Assembly (NCBI GenBank): GCA_012511995.1
Contig: JAAZFA010000471.1
Location: 1 to 21,520, forward strand
DNA length: 21,520 bases
Reading direction: 5' to 3'
DNA from: Thermoproteota archaeon
GTDB taxonomy: Archaea; Thermoproteota; Bathyarchaeia; Bathyarchaeales; Bathycorpusculaceae
Positions 2,381-7,220 of the stretch are shown here, piece after piece (positions within the stretch are counted from its first letter, which is position 1; each line of letters begins with the position of its first letter). Position numbers and translations under genes: made by a program. Below the pieces are notes generated by a model. That model did not search any database. It saw nothing but the letters and a program-made list of their open reading frames with translations, and was not told the origin of the DNA.

Positions 2381-2459
2381 GCGGCCGTCGTCTAGTCTGG
2401 TTTAGGACTTTAGCCTTCCAAGCTAACGATCCCGGGTTCAAATCCCGGCGACCGCACCA
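2381..2459 (+). tRNA. tRNA-Gly(UCC), integration target
   Basis: A full cloverleaf can be drawn. The acceptor arms are GCGGCCG and CGACCGC, the D stem is GTCT/GGAC, and the anticodon stem is TTAGC/GCTAA around loop CTTCCAA (anticodon TCC, glycine). The T arm is CCGGG/CCCGG with loop TTCAAAT. The discriminator base is A and CCA is encoded. No intron is seen. The acceptor stem has one C5-A68 mismatch. The 3' 48 nt are repeated at 5705-5752 with one difference (A57 here, G57 there), so the gene was the attachment site of the element that follows and its 3' part was probably supplied by that element. Confidence 0.95.
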
Positions 2460-2730
2460 TATTTATCCCCTTTTCCCGAAATGCAACCTGATTTAGGCTC
2501 AGATTCCTGTTATTGGATTCTGTGACAGGGTTACTGAATTCCGTAACCGGGTTACATTTTTCCGTAACCATAAAGTTTCCCGTGACCGCGAACCCTGCGC
2601 ACTCAAGCAGCCTCAGATCCTCTCGTAGCCCCTCGATTTTGCCGCGTATGCGATGCCTAAGGGCTTTGCTATAATTCGCGTTGTAGGCTTGAGGATTCCG
2701 TAAAAATTCTTTCTCCGCTTCGCTTAACAA
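2410..2730 (-). CDS. int: Integrase N-terminal fragment (intN) of SSV-type integrase
   Basis: This 106-residue fragment begins at a TTG with GAGG about 10 nt upstream. Residues 1-45 form a charged, probably helical region (LSEAEKEFLRNPQAYN). A linker with four copies of a VT-containing heptad follows (for example NPVTEFSNPVTES). The last 15 residues, VRSPGFEPGIVSLEG, are the antisense translation of the tRNA 3' part, and the stop TAA (2410-2412) comes from the tRNA. intC at the other end of the element reads the same residues in the same frame through attR. In the excised circle intN would thus continue directly into intC and give one 417-residue tyrosine recombinase. In the integrated state this fragment has no catalytic residues. 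It diverges from the nuclease-like gene across 137 bp that hold a promoter for each. Confidence 0.75.
   Translation of the reverse strand: MLSEAEKEFLRNPQAYNANYSKALRHRIRGKIEGLREDLRLLECAGFAVTGNFMVTEKCNPVTEFSNPVTESNNRNLSLNQVAFREKGINMVRSPGFEPGIVSLEG
2412..2459 (+). repeat. attL: 3' part of tRNA-Gly
   Basis: This 48-bp direct repeat starts in the anticodon stem (AGCCTTCC) and ends with the encoded CCA. It matches 5705-5752 at 47 of 48 positions, the difference being A at 2440. Here it completes the functional tRNA and at the same time encodes, on the minus strand, the end of the integrase N-terminal fragment. Confidence 0.9.
2517..2590 (-). repeat. 21-bp repeat coding for VT-heptads in intN
   Basis: On the plus strand the unit around CCGTAACCGGGTTAC recurs with starts near 2521, 2542, 2563 and 2581 (steps 21, 21, 18). 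In the intN frame this gives VTGNFM, VTEKCNP, VTEFSNP, VTESNNR. The repeat respects the reading frame and lies just before the att-encoded part of the protein, so it is probably a flexible linker that can change in length. Confidence 0.6.
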
Positions 2731-2767
2731 TTTATTGTAACCTCAAGGCTATATCCACTGCTCACCG

Positions 2768-2811
2768 ATTTAAACGATTGAGCGGGGCATCCGAGCCATC
2801 GATTATATTAA
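2768..2811. promoter_or_regulatory. Divergent promoters of intN and the nuclease-like gene
   Basis: The minus-strand reading of 2768-2777 gives a GTTTAAATC-like TATA box about 40 bp before the intN TTG. On the plus strand GATTATATTAAG at about 2800-2811 would start transcription about 35 bp before the ATG at 2868. These assignments rest on spacing and composition only. Confidence 0.3.
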
Positions 2812-2867
2812 GCTGCGCCGACAAAGATAGGTAAGGTCATCGCATTCTATGGAGAGTTAAGTTAGCA

Positions 2868-3539
2868 ATGCCGATACGTAACGATTTAAAGTTCCGCAGA
2901 TGGCTTGGGAAATTCGACTGGAGTACAGATGAGCCCGGGTTAATCTGGTACTCCGTGAATATCGCGACAATGTGGTTGCAAAGGGAAGCTAAGCAGAAGG
3001 GTTACGTAACCGCTGACCACTTGAATAAAGCGTGCGGCATATTAACCGAGGAAATCTTTGCAGCCGAACTAAACGAATTGAACGTTCCCCACCTGAGAAC
3101 CGTACCCTTACTGGATAAGACGCATCCAACGAATGCTAGGAAACCGTATGATTTCAAAATCGGCGGCTACACCATAGATTTAAAATCGATTTCACCTTTA
3201 CCGTCACCAAGCATCGGGCACCATAAGAATTTGAACGTTAACCATGCAGAGATTGAAAATATCGGGTTATGCGACTACTATATTTGCACTAAATGCTACC
3301 CCGAATTGCCGCCTGACACCCAGCAATCCGATGAGCTTCCAAGAGATTTTGCGCTTAAGATTCTCCAAAAGGTTGAAAGAGTCGAATTCCTCGGTTACGC
3401 TACGGGGGCTGATGTGCTGAAAGCGCGGTTGGTTCCAACAGCGAAACCATTCCACAGTAAACCGCCACCTCATGAGTCGATGCGGCAATTAGCGCGTTTA
3501 CTTAACATCCCGCTTGAGCCTCCAACATCGGGCATTTAA
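2868..3539 (+). CDS. PD-(D/E)XK nuclease-like protein of the element
   Basis: This 223-residue protein has a pattern typical of the PD-(D/E)XK restriction-endonuclease fold. An N-terminal helix carries Glu (ILTEEIFAAEL, residues 58-68). The strand pair KPYDFKIGG...YTIDLKSIS follows, with Asp95 and the Asp104-x-Lys106 signature. A small region with two cysteines (ICTKCYPE) may bind metal or be structural. The tail is Pro-rich (FHSKPPPHES). GGAGAG sits about 12 nt before the ATG. It is the only clear cargo gene of the element and is transcribed divergently from intN. Possible roles are defence, self-mobilisation or processing of element DNA. I do not recognise a named family. The fold call is motif-based and moderately sure; the function is not known. 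Confidence 0.6.
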   Translation: MPIRNDLKFRRWLGKFDWSTDEPGLIWYSVNIATMWLQREAKQKGYVTADHLNKACGILTEEIFAAELNELNVPHLRTVPLLDKTHPTNARKPYDFKIGGYTIDLKSISPLPSPSIGHHKNLNVNHAEIENIGLCDYYICTKCYPELPPDTQQSDELPRDFALKILQKVERVEFLGYATGADVLKARLVPTAKPFHSKPPPHESMRQLARLLNIPLEPPTSGI

Positions 3540-3780
3540 CTTTCTGCACTGTTTAGGCTAGGTCTCCTTGTGCCGTTCACCCGTAGTCCCGAATGATGCG
3601 CAGGTTTCGCAATGGTGGACTTTAGGGTTTGGGCGCGAGGTTCCGCAAAAGTTGGCTGTACTATTGAAAGTTGGGTGAAGCGAGTATACTATATTATACT
3701 TGTTCTGCCCTGTTCCACATAGTACTGCTCTGAGCCGGGGAAGTTGCGGGTTAAACGTGCGATGCGGTTTGGGGTGCTGG

Positions 3781-4142
3781 CTGCGGATTAAAGTTTCCAA
3801 TGGCACACTCTGCTTTGGGCGCACCTTTTATCAATTGTTGACCTGCTGCAGCTACCTAAATTCCTAAACTCTATAAATCAGGTAGGTAAAAGTATAGTCA
3901 AATTAGAGGTTTATAAAAAATGTTGACCTGCAGCTGATAGCGGGCTTCTCCGTAAGCTGTCGAATTCTGCGGATTAGGCGCTACTTCGTTTACAATGGGT
4001 GACCAGCTGCAATTCATTAAATTTGTCCAAACTTGAAAGTCAGATCTATAGGTAGTAAAATATAGGGAGATAGGGTAGTAGAAAGGTTTCCGCTTTTTTT
4101 ATTCTGTTGCAGCTATTTGCTCATTGCTAAGGCTGCGGATTG
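3781..4142 (+). repeat. Imperfect repeat cluster (candidate origin repeats)
   Basis: CTGCGGATT recurs at 3781, 3967 and 4133. GTTGACCTGCTGCAGCT at 3837-3853 has shorter relatives at 3922-3935, 3998-4011 and 4106-4114. GGTAGGTAAAAGTATAG at 3881-3897 matches GGTAGTAAAATATAG at 4051-4065. The order of motifs is the same in both units, giving two diverged units of roughly 170-186 bp. An AT-rich stretch (TTTATAAAAAATG, 3910-3922) sits between them. Confidence 0.55.
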
Positions 4143-4295
4143 GGCGGATAAATCGCGTTAAGGTATCGCTTCAGGTTCGGCGGGTGCTGAGTATCGCATG
4201 GAATTATTAGGTTCTGCAGGTTATACGGCGGTTGGGGAAAAAGTTCAAGACTCTGCGGTTGTGGGGTTTGCGGGGTGGGATAGGTCGTGCGGTGC

Positions 4296-4334
4296 GGGTT
4301 ACGGGGTTGGGCGCGGTGGGCGGGTAGTGCGGGG
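4296..4334 (+). other. G-quadruplex-prone tract
   Basis: Six runs of three or four G (starting at 4296, 4303, 4309, 4318, 4322 and 4331) are separated by 4, 2, 6, 1 and 6 nt, satisfying the usual G3+N1-7 rule. Further G runs lie at 4263, 4272, 4277 and 4350. Formation in vivo is not shown. Confidence 0.55.
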
Positions 4335-4402
4335 TTTATGTACGACAGCGGGGTGGTGCGTTCAAAGCCTCAAGTGCCAAGTGCCAGAGCCCCCATTTGT
4401 AA

Positions 4403-4444
4403 AGTGCCCTTTTCATAGTGCCCTTTGTAAAGTTCCCATTGCTA
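4403..4444 (+). repeat. Three 14-bp iteron-like repeats
   Basis: AGTGCCCTTTTCAT, AGTGCCCTTTGTAA and AGTTCCCATTGCTA follow each other at 14-bp steps. Two more AGTGCC copies stand at 4373 and 4380. Confidence 0.4.
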
Positions 4445-4498
4445 ACCCTCCGCTGATTTTGTAAAAAGCGTTCTGCGCGCAGTTCCCAAACAGCACGT

Positions 4499-4513
4499 TA
4501 TAACAATGTTATA
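4499..4513. promoter_or_regulatory. Perfect dyad TATAACA-A-TGTTATA
   Basis: Two 7-bp arms are separated by one base. This is a protein-binding type of palindrome in the noncoding part of the element. No gene start lies directly beside it, so its target is unclear. Confidence 0.3.
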
Positions 4514-4769
4514 CCAAGTATCGTTACGGCGTTAAAAGCGGCTTCTAAACCGCCTAAATCCAGTTAACTTTGCAAAATAAGCGTAGAGCTGCATTAAGTC
4601 ACATCCACCTTAACGTTCACCCAAGCGGAATGTTTGTGACTGCAAGGGTACGTGCTGTTTGGGGTTCGCGTGTCAACAAGGGTACACAAAAGGGAACGCG
4701 CTGGCAATCCCTTTTTATTGCTTACCCATTGCGGGTTGACGCGTTGCAGTGATGAAGCGCGGAATATAA

Positions 4770-5768
4770 TTATGCCCCAACCTTAACAGGAGGTTGCGCC
4801 TCTCTAAGTTTCGCGATGTAGTCCGCATACTTCGGGTAAAAGCCATCCGCCTGCTTCAGTAAAGCGGTATAATGTTTAGCCCCAATCTTCTTCGGCACCC
4901 TGCCCTCTATGAAGTCCGCGACGCTTTCGGGGATACTGAACTTTTCGCTTATCATAGTGTCGAACGCGAATTTGCGGAGATACTTAGGTGCCAGATAACC
5001 CATCTTGTAAGCGTAGTGTGAAGCTGCGGATTCATCGATTTTCTCGTTGACGCTACGGATAAGCTGTAAAGTGTGGGGTGTAAAGTAAGCCGCGTACGCC
5101 AGCTTTGAACCTCGAAAGTAGCCGAGTGTGCAGCGGATGAAGCTGTTACCATTAAAGCCGTTAACCTCGACGGGGTTAACTGTGCCATTGTTAAGCTCGG
5201 CGATTAAACGCGCAGCTTCCGTTAACCTTAACCCTGAATCTAAAAGTAAACTGTAGAACGCGCGATATTTGGGTGCAGCCGCGTAAAGTTTCGCAAGGTT
5301 AGCAATGATGTCGGCTTCTGTTGGCACGTTTAAGTCTACCCCAACGTTATCTTTCGGGATAGCTTTTCTGAGTGCAGCCAAATAATTCGGGTCAACCCCT
5401 TTAAGCTCGTAGAAGCGGAAAAGCGCGGATAACGCACGGTTAAGGTTATGCTTTTGCCCATCAGTTAACTTGGTGCAGATTTTCACTATATCCATCGGCT
5501 CATGGATAACCTGAACCCAACGTTCCAGTTGCCTTACGATGCTTTTAGTATACGCGCCGTTAAAATGCTGAGCCTCTAAATATTCCGCGAATTCAGCTGC
5601 CTCGCGCCGCCAATCGATAAAGTAGCCTGCGCCAAACTGCTTTACACAGTTAGAGCCCGAATATAATCCCGATGAGCGAACGGAGTCTGCGCAAGTTGCT
5701 TTTGAGCCTTCCAAGCTAACGATCCCGGGTTCGAATCCCGGCGACCGCACCAATAATTTACTCTTCAA
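4770..5768 (-). CDS. int: Integrase C-terminal catalytic fragment (intC), SSV-type tyrosine recombinase
   Basis: The open frame has 332 codons, but the first few (from a chance TTG at 5768) lie in host DNA. Element-derived sequence begins in attR with VRSPGFEPGIVSLEG. A helical core-binding-like domain spans about residues 50-140. The catalytic domain carries Arg181 (SGLRLTEA), a likely beta-hairpin Lys222 (GSKLAY), Lys262-x-x-Arg265 (KYLRKFAFD, with Lys in place of the usual His of HxxR) and the nucleophile Tyr300 in GAKHYTALL. The stretch IPESVADFIEGRVP is typical of archaeal phage-type integrases as I recall them. After integration it is cut off from its own start, promoter and N-terminal part (intN, 2410-2730), so it is probably not expressed normally and the element is locked unless another integrase acts. 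In the circle the full protein would have 417 residues. Confidence 0.85.
   Translation of the reverse strand: MKSKLLVRSPGFEPGIVSLEGSKATCADSVRSSGLYSGSNCVKQFGAGYFIDWRREAAEFAEYLEAQHFNGAYTKSIVRQLERWVQVIHEPMDIVKICTKLTDGQKHNLNRALSALFRFYELKGVDPNYLAALRKAIPKDNVGVDLNVPTEADIIANLAKLYAAAPKYRAFYSLLLDSGLRLTEAARLIAELNNGTVNPVEVNGFNGNSFIRCTLGYFRGSKLAYAAYFTPHTLQLIRSVNEKIDESAASHYAYKMGYLAPKYLRKFAFDTMISEKFSIPESVADFIEGRVPKKIGAKHYTALLKQADGFYPKYADYIAKLREAQPPVKVGA
5705..5752 (+). repeat. attR: partial tRNA-Gly copy
   Basis: This is the second copy of the 48-bp att core, with G at 5733 where the intact tRNA has A. There is no 5' tRNA half in front of it, so it is not a second tRNA gene. On the minus strand it forms part of the integrase reading frame, where the A/G difference is a silent Phe codon change. 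Confidence 0.9.
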
Positions 5769-6532: not shown

Positions 6533-6635
6533 ACCGTGAATTAGCTTCGAGAAAAAAACGCTTAACTTGATTTTTGGTTTAAACAAATGCTGCCCTGCCA
6601 TACGACTTAAACGGCTAATAATAAATATTGTAATT

Positions 6636-7220
6636 ATGAAAACAGAAATAAAAATTGTTGCAAAAGGAAAGTCAAAAGAACAAGATGAAGAGTTATTGAA
6701 AAAATTGAAAGCCCGTTTTAATGAGAACAAACGCAGACATAAAGACCTTGAATGGACAAAAGTACAAGCAAAACTGGAAAATAGCTCTAAAAAGCTGTGG
6801 TCACTTAATGAAATGGAAAGAACAGGGGGAGAACCCGATATTGTTGGTTACGCAGAAAAAACGGATGAATACGTTTTTTATGACTGTTCAACGGAAAGCC
6901 CAAAAGGGCGCAGAAATATTTGTTACGACCAAGAAGGGCAGAAAAAAAGGGTAAAACAAGGAATACACCCACAGGGCAATGCTGTTGATATGGCAGCTAC
7001 CATGGGTATTGAACTTTTAACGGAAGATGAATACATAGAATTACAGAAACTCGGAGAATTCGATACTAAAACGTCGAGTTGGCTCAAAACACCGCCAGAT
7101 ATTAGAAAAAAAGGTGGCGCCATCTTTGCAAGTCGTCGTTATGGTCACGTTTTTATTTATCCAAACAGTGCACCTTCTTTTTACAGCAGCAGAGCATTTC
7201 GTGGGTCGTTAAAAATATAG
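6636..7220 (+). CDS. DUF4256 family protein
   Basis: The 194-residue protein starts at the ATG at 6636. An upstream in-frame ATT-rich extension to 6567 is possible but reads as non-conserved sequence. After a lysine-rich, probably helical start, it shows the continuous family pattern: LWSLNEMERTGGEPDIVGY, FYDCSTESPKGRRNICYD, AVDMAATMGIELLTEDEY, LQKLGEFDTKTSSWLKTP, ADIR-like PPDIRKKGGAIFA and a C-terminal SRAFRGSLKI. DUF4256 proteins are known as I recall mostly from bacteria, with conserved Cys/Asp/Glu residues that suggest an enzyme, but the activity is unknown. It stands alone between the decayed DUF3786 gene and a small hypothetical. Transfer from bacteria is possible. The family call is fairly sure; a function cannot be given. 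Confidence 0.8.
   Translation: MKTEIKIVAKGKSKEQDEELLKKLKARFNENKRRHKDLEWTKVQAKLENSSKKLWSLNEMERTGGEPDIVGYAEKTDEYVFYDCSTESPKGRRNICYDQEGQKKRVKQGIHPQGNAVDMAATMGIELLTEDEYIELQKLGEFDTKTSSWLKTPPDIRKKGGAIFASRRYGHVFIYPNSAPSFYSSRAFRGSLKI

Follow-up and report, generated by a model that had tools for sequence, protein, structure and literature searches.

The 21,520-bp contig JAAZFA010000471.1 (C335; the window, which is the entire contig) belongs to a Bathyarchaeia metagenome-assembled genome of 2.23 Mb in 499 contigs, 85% complete. It carries a small integrative element, 3293 bp (3.3 kb) from one attachment (att) copy to the other, which almost certainly sits in a tRNA-Gly(TCC) gene by virtue of an integrase of the Sulfolobus spindle-shaped virus (SSV) type, also called type I or "suicidal", whose gene was split by its own integration into an N-terminal part, intN, and a catalytic part, intC. 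An ordinary SSV-type split integrase is indicated by the direct repeat at the element ends, the reading frame that joins both parts, the database matches of intC, an empty site in a genome of the same genus and the relatives that share the arrangement. The case documents the suicidal-integrase mechanism in Bathyarchaeia in a very small version, and the small size of the element together with signs of exchanged gene halves gives it additional interest.

An integrase gene split within tRNA-Gly(TCC)

The target gene, placed by Rfam RF00005 at 2381-2456 on the + strand (60.6 bits), is complete, and its 3' part reappears at the far end of the element (Table 1). The 48-bp att repeat described in the initial annotation is present at 2412-2459 and 5705-5752 with one mismatch, and extends to 51 nt with 49 identical positions and two mismatches. 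Both gene parts read this repeat in one frame, intN ending and intC beginning in VRSPGFEPGIVSLEG, and their junction through att yields the anticipated 417 residues with no stop, provided that the intC copy supplies base 5704. The joined frame must take this base because, owing to the mismatch at 2411/5704, the tRNA copy follows the hinge with a TAA stop codon where the intC copy has TCA (Ser). The catalytic residues named beforehand, R266, K307, K347-x-x-R350 and Y385 of the joined protein, correspond to R181, K222, K262, R265 and Y300 of intC and compose the tyrosine-recombinase set R, K, K/H-x-x-R, Y; in an alignment of 27 sequences, the window included, K222 is at least 90% conserved and the other four are invariant.

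Database comparison places intC in Pfam family PF16795, Phage_integr_3 ("Archaeal phage integrase"; E 1.3e-24, 87.4 bits, cut-off 27) and in the integrase family phrog_5127 (E 1.1e-38), and matches it to the PDB chains 3uxu (7.2e-10), 3vcf and 4dks, all labelled "Probable integrase" (E 7e-10 to 2e-9), which we take to be the SSV1 integrase. The smaller part, intN, starts at TTG 2730 with GAGGT nine bases upstream and has no Pfam match; its five database matches are itself, three full-length homologues (P0122, P0123 and P0124, with 92%, 69% and 47% identity; E 8e-55 to 5e-16) and one partial sequence. The SSV-type arrangement that had been predicted is recovered, with an attachment site within the integrase gene, an in-frame split, a tRNA target left intact and intN overlapping the tRNA. 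The catalytic part is indeed parted from its start, the two parts lying at opposite ends of the element, and the role of the antisense tRNA as an in-frame hinge is borne out by the joined frame as well as by other split elements (see below).

Table 1. Features of the integrated element and its target in the window.
Feature	Position	Strand	Basis
Complete tRNA-Gly(TCC), preserved integration target	2381..2459	+	ARAGORN
att copy 1, left element end; tRNA 3' part from anticodon stem to encoded CCA	2409..2459	+	direct repeat
intN, integrase N-terminal part, 106 aa; last codons are antisense tRNA	2410..2730	-	ORF, homologues
ORF223, 223 aa, PD-(D/E)xK-like motif, possible nuclease	2868..3539	+	database matches, alignment
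1.2 kb with no convincing gene; imperfect repeats	3540..4769	.	ORF list, repeat search
intC, integrase catalytic part, 332 aa as listed; portion beyond att is host DNA	4770..5768	-	PF16795, phrog_5127, PDB 3uxu
att copy 2, right element end; tRNA remnant	5702..5752	+	direct repeat

The mechanism that we propose has attP inside the coding sequence, between the N-terminal and the catalytic domain, as a copy of the tRNA 3' half that is read antisense and in frame. Site-specific recombination would insert the element into the 3' half of tRNA-Gly(TCC), and strand exchange somewhere in 2412-2459 would restore the tRNA, with intN overlapping it, at one end of the element and place intC at the opposite end. 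A circular form would exist and the complete enzyme would be made from it, while the integrated parts would yield no active enzyme and excision would need a complete related integrase acting in trans.

The two mismatches of the repeat bear on where the strands are exchanged. By reading of the sequence, the base at 2411/5704 forms the second pair of the tRNA anticodon stem; the element's base at 5704 would break this pair, and therefore the host base must have been kept. The same base as at 2411 is found in all 24 readable tRNA-Gly(TCC) genes of relatives. The kept host base fits strand exchange 3' of 2411, and exchange anywhere 3' of 2411 on excision would yield a circle whose frame is open and leave the tRNA of the chromosome sound. 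Mapping of the crossover from the two mismatches yields only the limit "right of 2411"; a further site, 2427/5720, is of no help in this respect since C stands in both att copies and T in the tRNA genes of all 24 relatives read. The element differs from its surroundings in composition, with 47.6% GC inside vs 39.8% outside.

Empty site and other occupants of the tRNA gene

The genome G011, of the same genus, presents the empty site, with the gene order Elf1, tRNA-Gly, o7321, cyclophilin, cyclophilin (L131) and o7321 beginning about 170 bp past the tRNA; between these two the window has the element together with a DUF4256 gene. The two sites are not identical in every respect, as the distance from Elf1 to the tRNA is about 1 kb in G011 and 143 bp in the window. 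The reading as an empty site rests on G011, the flanks in other genomes of the genus being mostly too short to bear on it. The DUF4256 gene (6627-7220, 6.5e-82) has no match in the same-genus loci compared, G011 included.

The tRNA-Gly(TCC) gene is readable in 24 of 25 same-genus loci examined, and taking a second partial tRNA copy as the criterion it is occupied in at least 3 of the 32 genomes of the genus, the window's among them, in a survey that scored part of the candidates per genome. G022 and G024 carry other elements in this gene, of 10.7 and 6.3 kb, with o7321 and cyclophilin sequence directly beyond the element in G022; in G003 there is an additional, nearly full second tRNA copy nearby.

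Excision and competing readings

As judged from the gene arrangement, the integrated element is probably unable to excise alone. No other intact member of either of the two integrase families described below (type A, that of the window, and type B) was found in its own assembly, 85% complete, where the sole type B trace is a 46-residue scrap with a stop codon. Excision in trans through a related complete integrase has been reported, according to the passages of the review "Archaeal tyrosine recombinases" on which we draw throughout (PMC8371274).

Some observations weigh against the proposed reading. Searches for a circular junction were negative both in the genome's own assembly, with up to 3 mismatches allowed, and in IMG/VR (exact match), and the second repeat mismatch, 2440/5733, at which 23 of 24 relatives have the tRNA copy's base, cannot be assigned to either host or element. 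No unsplit gene with the window's N domain was seen: the domain was met in separate short frames, the longest open frame that matches it having 209 residues, and the database search with intN had length limits that excluded unsplit genes. The joined 417-residue query was itself assessed on the best 120 of its 462 database matches. The expectation that it would align along its full length with an intact SSV-type integrase holds in part: P0110, apparently unsplit, has the hinge and the catalytic domain and is 39% identical over 356 aligned positions, but its N-terminal domain is a different one.

P0110 and P0119, both apparently unsplit type A integrases, carry this other domain (PF07362 is listed) before the antisense-tRNA hinge as a second kind of N half, which the start of P0053 resembles by eye. 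Another unusual protein is P0018 (359 aa, on a 1,391-bp contig), which runs from an att motif through the catalytic part to GARHYTK and then directly into a sequence resembling intN, followed by another att motif. Related intC proteins have YTKLLR where intN has YSKALR, and P0018 is perhaps an intC fused to intN through a deletion across this short similarity, or else a chimeric contig.

That we are looking at a dead remnant, integrated, immobile and decaying, seems rather unlikely, even though the missing circle, the lack of a second intact type A integrase and the broken type B scrap would all agree with it. The reading frames of intN, intC and ORF223 remain open and the two copies of att are 96% identical, while two of the seven elements compared (see below) are already broken, G022 in intN and L217 in intC; since those are interrupted and its own genes are open, the window copy looks younger than they do. 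We consider it improbable, somewhat more so than a dead remnant, that translation of intC begins close to att and that the product, alone or together with intN, forms an active or helper recombinase by which the element can excise or help others to do so. In-frame starts are available to it at TTG 5768 or the next in-frame TTG, both in host DNA, and at a GTG inside att, the start listed for its relatives P0001, P0009 and P0016. A purine-rich GAAGAG lies, by eye, seven bases ahead of the in-frame TTG at the att edge, but is a weak match compared with the GAGGT ahead of intN. The passages cited above also refer to an experiment suggesting that the Int(C) of TKV4, which comes from a split element, is effectively expressed (PMC8371274). 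The split, SSV-type integrase with presumed excision in trans is the reading that we retain in what follows.

One N domain paired with two catalytic families

The intN genes of G022 and G024 resemble that of the window (E 7e-16, with stops inside, and 2e-10), and the search with the window's intC at E 0.001 missed their intC genes, which belong to a second family, type B. Profile comparisons connect types A and B for five of the seven elements compared, with E 4e-9 to 5e-6 and no link reported for L217 or L220; on this basis we regard the two as distant relatives. Type B falls below the Pfam cut-off of PF16795, with 20.1 and 18.1 bits vs 27. Searched for in 162 genomes of the order, it is matched in 51 (E <= 1e-5), among them the window's own genome through the scrap only.

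A profile of the N domain finds 21 distinct loci. In seven of these a type A or B intC is rightly placed as well, and 14, often at contig ends, are without one. The seven paired elements occupy tRNA genes for Gly-TCC (window, G022 and G024), Arg-GCG (L046), Ser-TGA (L050), Thr-GGT (L217) and Val-TAC (L220), and in each of them an att repeat of 46-62 nt connects the tRNA to the end of intC. As the repeat is present in every one of them and intN has homologues, the succession intN-att-intC is more than chance. The hinge peptide closes intN and opens intC in five of the seven, L220 with a two-residue insertion; the interruptions in G022 and L217 lie before the hinge.

With P0123/P0002 added, eight N/C pairs could be compared. 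The catalytic halves share a mean identity of 49% within types and 27% between them, and their tree splits accordingly (100/100), whereas the N halves reach 54% within and 45% between types. In the N tree the type A element of tRNA-Arg and the type B element of tRNA-Val fall into one group of seven rows (92/99; 100/99 in a second tree). Monophyly of type A in the N tree is rejected by the approximately unbiased (AU) test with 18 rows (p-AU 0.0034; 4 rows against 3), a set that left out the tRNA-Thr row, flagged as long-branched in the 8-row analysis, and is not rejected with the eight labelled rows alone (p-AU 0.082). The N-domain alignment has 49 columns, and the partial matches L213, L218, L219 and L221 were kept out of the trees.

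The discordance between the two trees suggests that the halves re-pair at the att seam, the alternative being a short domain that holds little signal. In a broader form, we tentatively propose, with a little less than even confidence, that att in the Bathyarchaeia integrase gene is an evolutionary swap point. There, a single family of N domains would have found new catalytic partners in two or more deeply divergent families and spread to different tRNA genes; the antisense tRNA would be a linker that works in any frame, and the split chromosomal genes would act as a store of parts for new integrases of very small elements (an integrase and one nuclease-like gene). A model in which homologous recombination yields chimeric integrases has been put forward for Thermococcales (PMC8371274, in the passages cited). 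If re-pairing is true, this model, which derives new specificities from the exchange of int(N) and int(C) halves, could be put to the test in another, distant class of archaea and between catalytic families that share only about 27% identity, and re-pairing would help to explain the persistence of integrases that destroy themselves.

Scraps of a type A intC C-terminus lie beside the type B intC in L220 (11327-12421) and upstream of the type A intC in L046 (8790-9074), possibly from repeated insertions at one tRNA.

The hinge frame

The antisense T-arm is read as GFEP in the window, L046, L050, L205, L208, L215 and L218, as DLNP, DLNR or DLDP in L125, L204, L209, L217 and L220, and as GIRT in L207 and in L221, the latter with a weak partial N match. 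Since intN genes of this family terminate in many different tRNA genes and in all three antisense frames, the hinge peptide itself appears incidental. A crude pattern count near the start of the 120 best intC relatives (the window's included, many of the proteins truncated) gave 52 GFEP-like, 11 DLNP-like and 57 with neither. In Thermococcales, too, the translation of att is described as quite variable among closely related sequences (PMC8371274, same passages).

A rival reading has the in-frame hinge as a product of chance, with GFEP-like antisense T-arm peptides arising in many open reading frames (ORFs) and intN an unrelated small one. By itself the hinge peptide does give weak matches in many genomes, many of them covering the hinge only, but intN is homologous along its whole length, its N domain is matched elsewhere and an intN-like frame stands at the tRNA end of all seven elements with both halves. 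The N-domain homologues refute a chance origin, which we regard as next to impossible.

Relatives and comparison with known systems

All three genes of the element have relatives, P0002 (intC, 80%), P0123 (intN, 69%) and P0129 (ORF223, 65%), whose longest recorded contig is in each case 448,322 bp long, and we infer that these relatives lie on one and the same contig. The intC search matched 22 of 100 genomes at E <= 0.001, the own genome included, several of the matches being scraps or the hinge only. When 84,980 species, each represented by one genome, were scanned with two patterns, 48 loci emerged, in records named Bathyarchaeota/Bathyarchaeia, Archaeoglobi, Thermoplasmata, DHVE2, Woesearchaeota and others. 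A simple search for a repeat between the 5'-end region of the integrase and a tRNA gene, in which the window as control showed its own repeat and many loci stop at contig ends, was positive for seven (L044, L046, L050, L063, L064, L066 and L087); these are counted by the repeat, the split gene having been checked in some. The tRNA-Thr element of L044 (3674-8465, 4.7 kb) combines a type A integrase with another kind of N-terminal ORF at the tRNA; its 994-aa ORF is by eye family B DNA polymerase-like.

Among annotated phage records intC matched 64, with Sulfolobus spindle-shaped virus integrases on top, and among plasmid records four. Against IMG/VR, intC alone had no match, and the intC alignment found five contigs (42-50% identity); in these the integrase lies close to one end, and the stretches examined gave no N-domain match.

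The fusellovirus integrases of SSV1 and SSV2 share with the window the PF16795 catalytic family (about 29-34% identity to the listed fusellovirus records), the R..K..KxxR..Y residues, an attP inside the gene, a tRNA target and intN on the tRNA side. They differ in that the window's host is a Bathyarchaeia genome and not a member of Sulfolobales, and its 3.3-kb element has no recognised virus gene and an N domain unmatched among 50,697 phage records. The Thermococcales plasmids pTN3 and pT26-2 likewise have suicidal integrases that are split upon integration into tRNA genes, but the record of the Thermococcus 26/2 plasmid has 21,566 bp and an integrase 24.8% identical over 88% of the query. The Saccharolobus solfataricus P2 plasmid NC_013777 (5,740 bp), presumably the satellite plasmid pSSVi, is also a small element with an SSV-type integrase, though only 29.7% identical over 56% of the query. 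The passages on type I or suicidal integrases in "Archaeal tyrosine recombinases" describe enzymes of PF16795 split into int(N) and int(C) (PMC8371274). In the parts consulted of a paper on Bathyarchaeia viruses, integrases are mentioned and no split gene was met (PMC10848311). Nor did we meet a paper on split integrases of Bathyarchaeia or Bathyarchaeota in the open-licence literature, which does not imply absence from print; a preprint about viruses of Thermococcales contains the terms "Bathyarchaeia" and "suicidal integrase" together (PMC12934983).

The remainder of the element

Besides the integrase halves, the element has one other candidate gene, ORF223, which has 12 database matches, itself included, the others with 47-76% identity. 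In the alignment of these 12 sequences E61, E62, D95 and D104-x-K106 are invariant, a pattern E...D...(D/E)-x-K that we take to be the catalytic motif of PD-(D/E)xK nucleases and that suggests such a nuclease as its product. ORF223 has no Pfam or PHROG match, and a PDB sequence search gave only two designs at E 0.8. The picture of its distribution rests on the 12 database proteins, because a search of the 162 genomes of the order with its relative P0129 matched the window alone and a search of IMG/VR with the alignment matched nothing. In L046, the tRNA-Arg element, a 296-aa ORF may share a similar stretch with ORF223, but the comparison (hhalign probability 20.5, E 0.0011) is only suggestive.

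The gene-free stretch that follows contains four imperfect 29-nt repeats at 3826-4115, 66-100% identical to the reference copy and with the cores GTTGACCTGC / GCAGCT. Speculatively, this stretch could be an origin or a region to which the recombinase binds.

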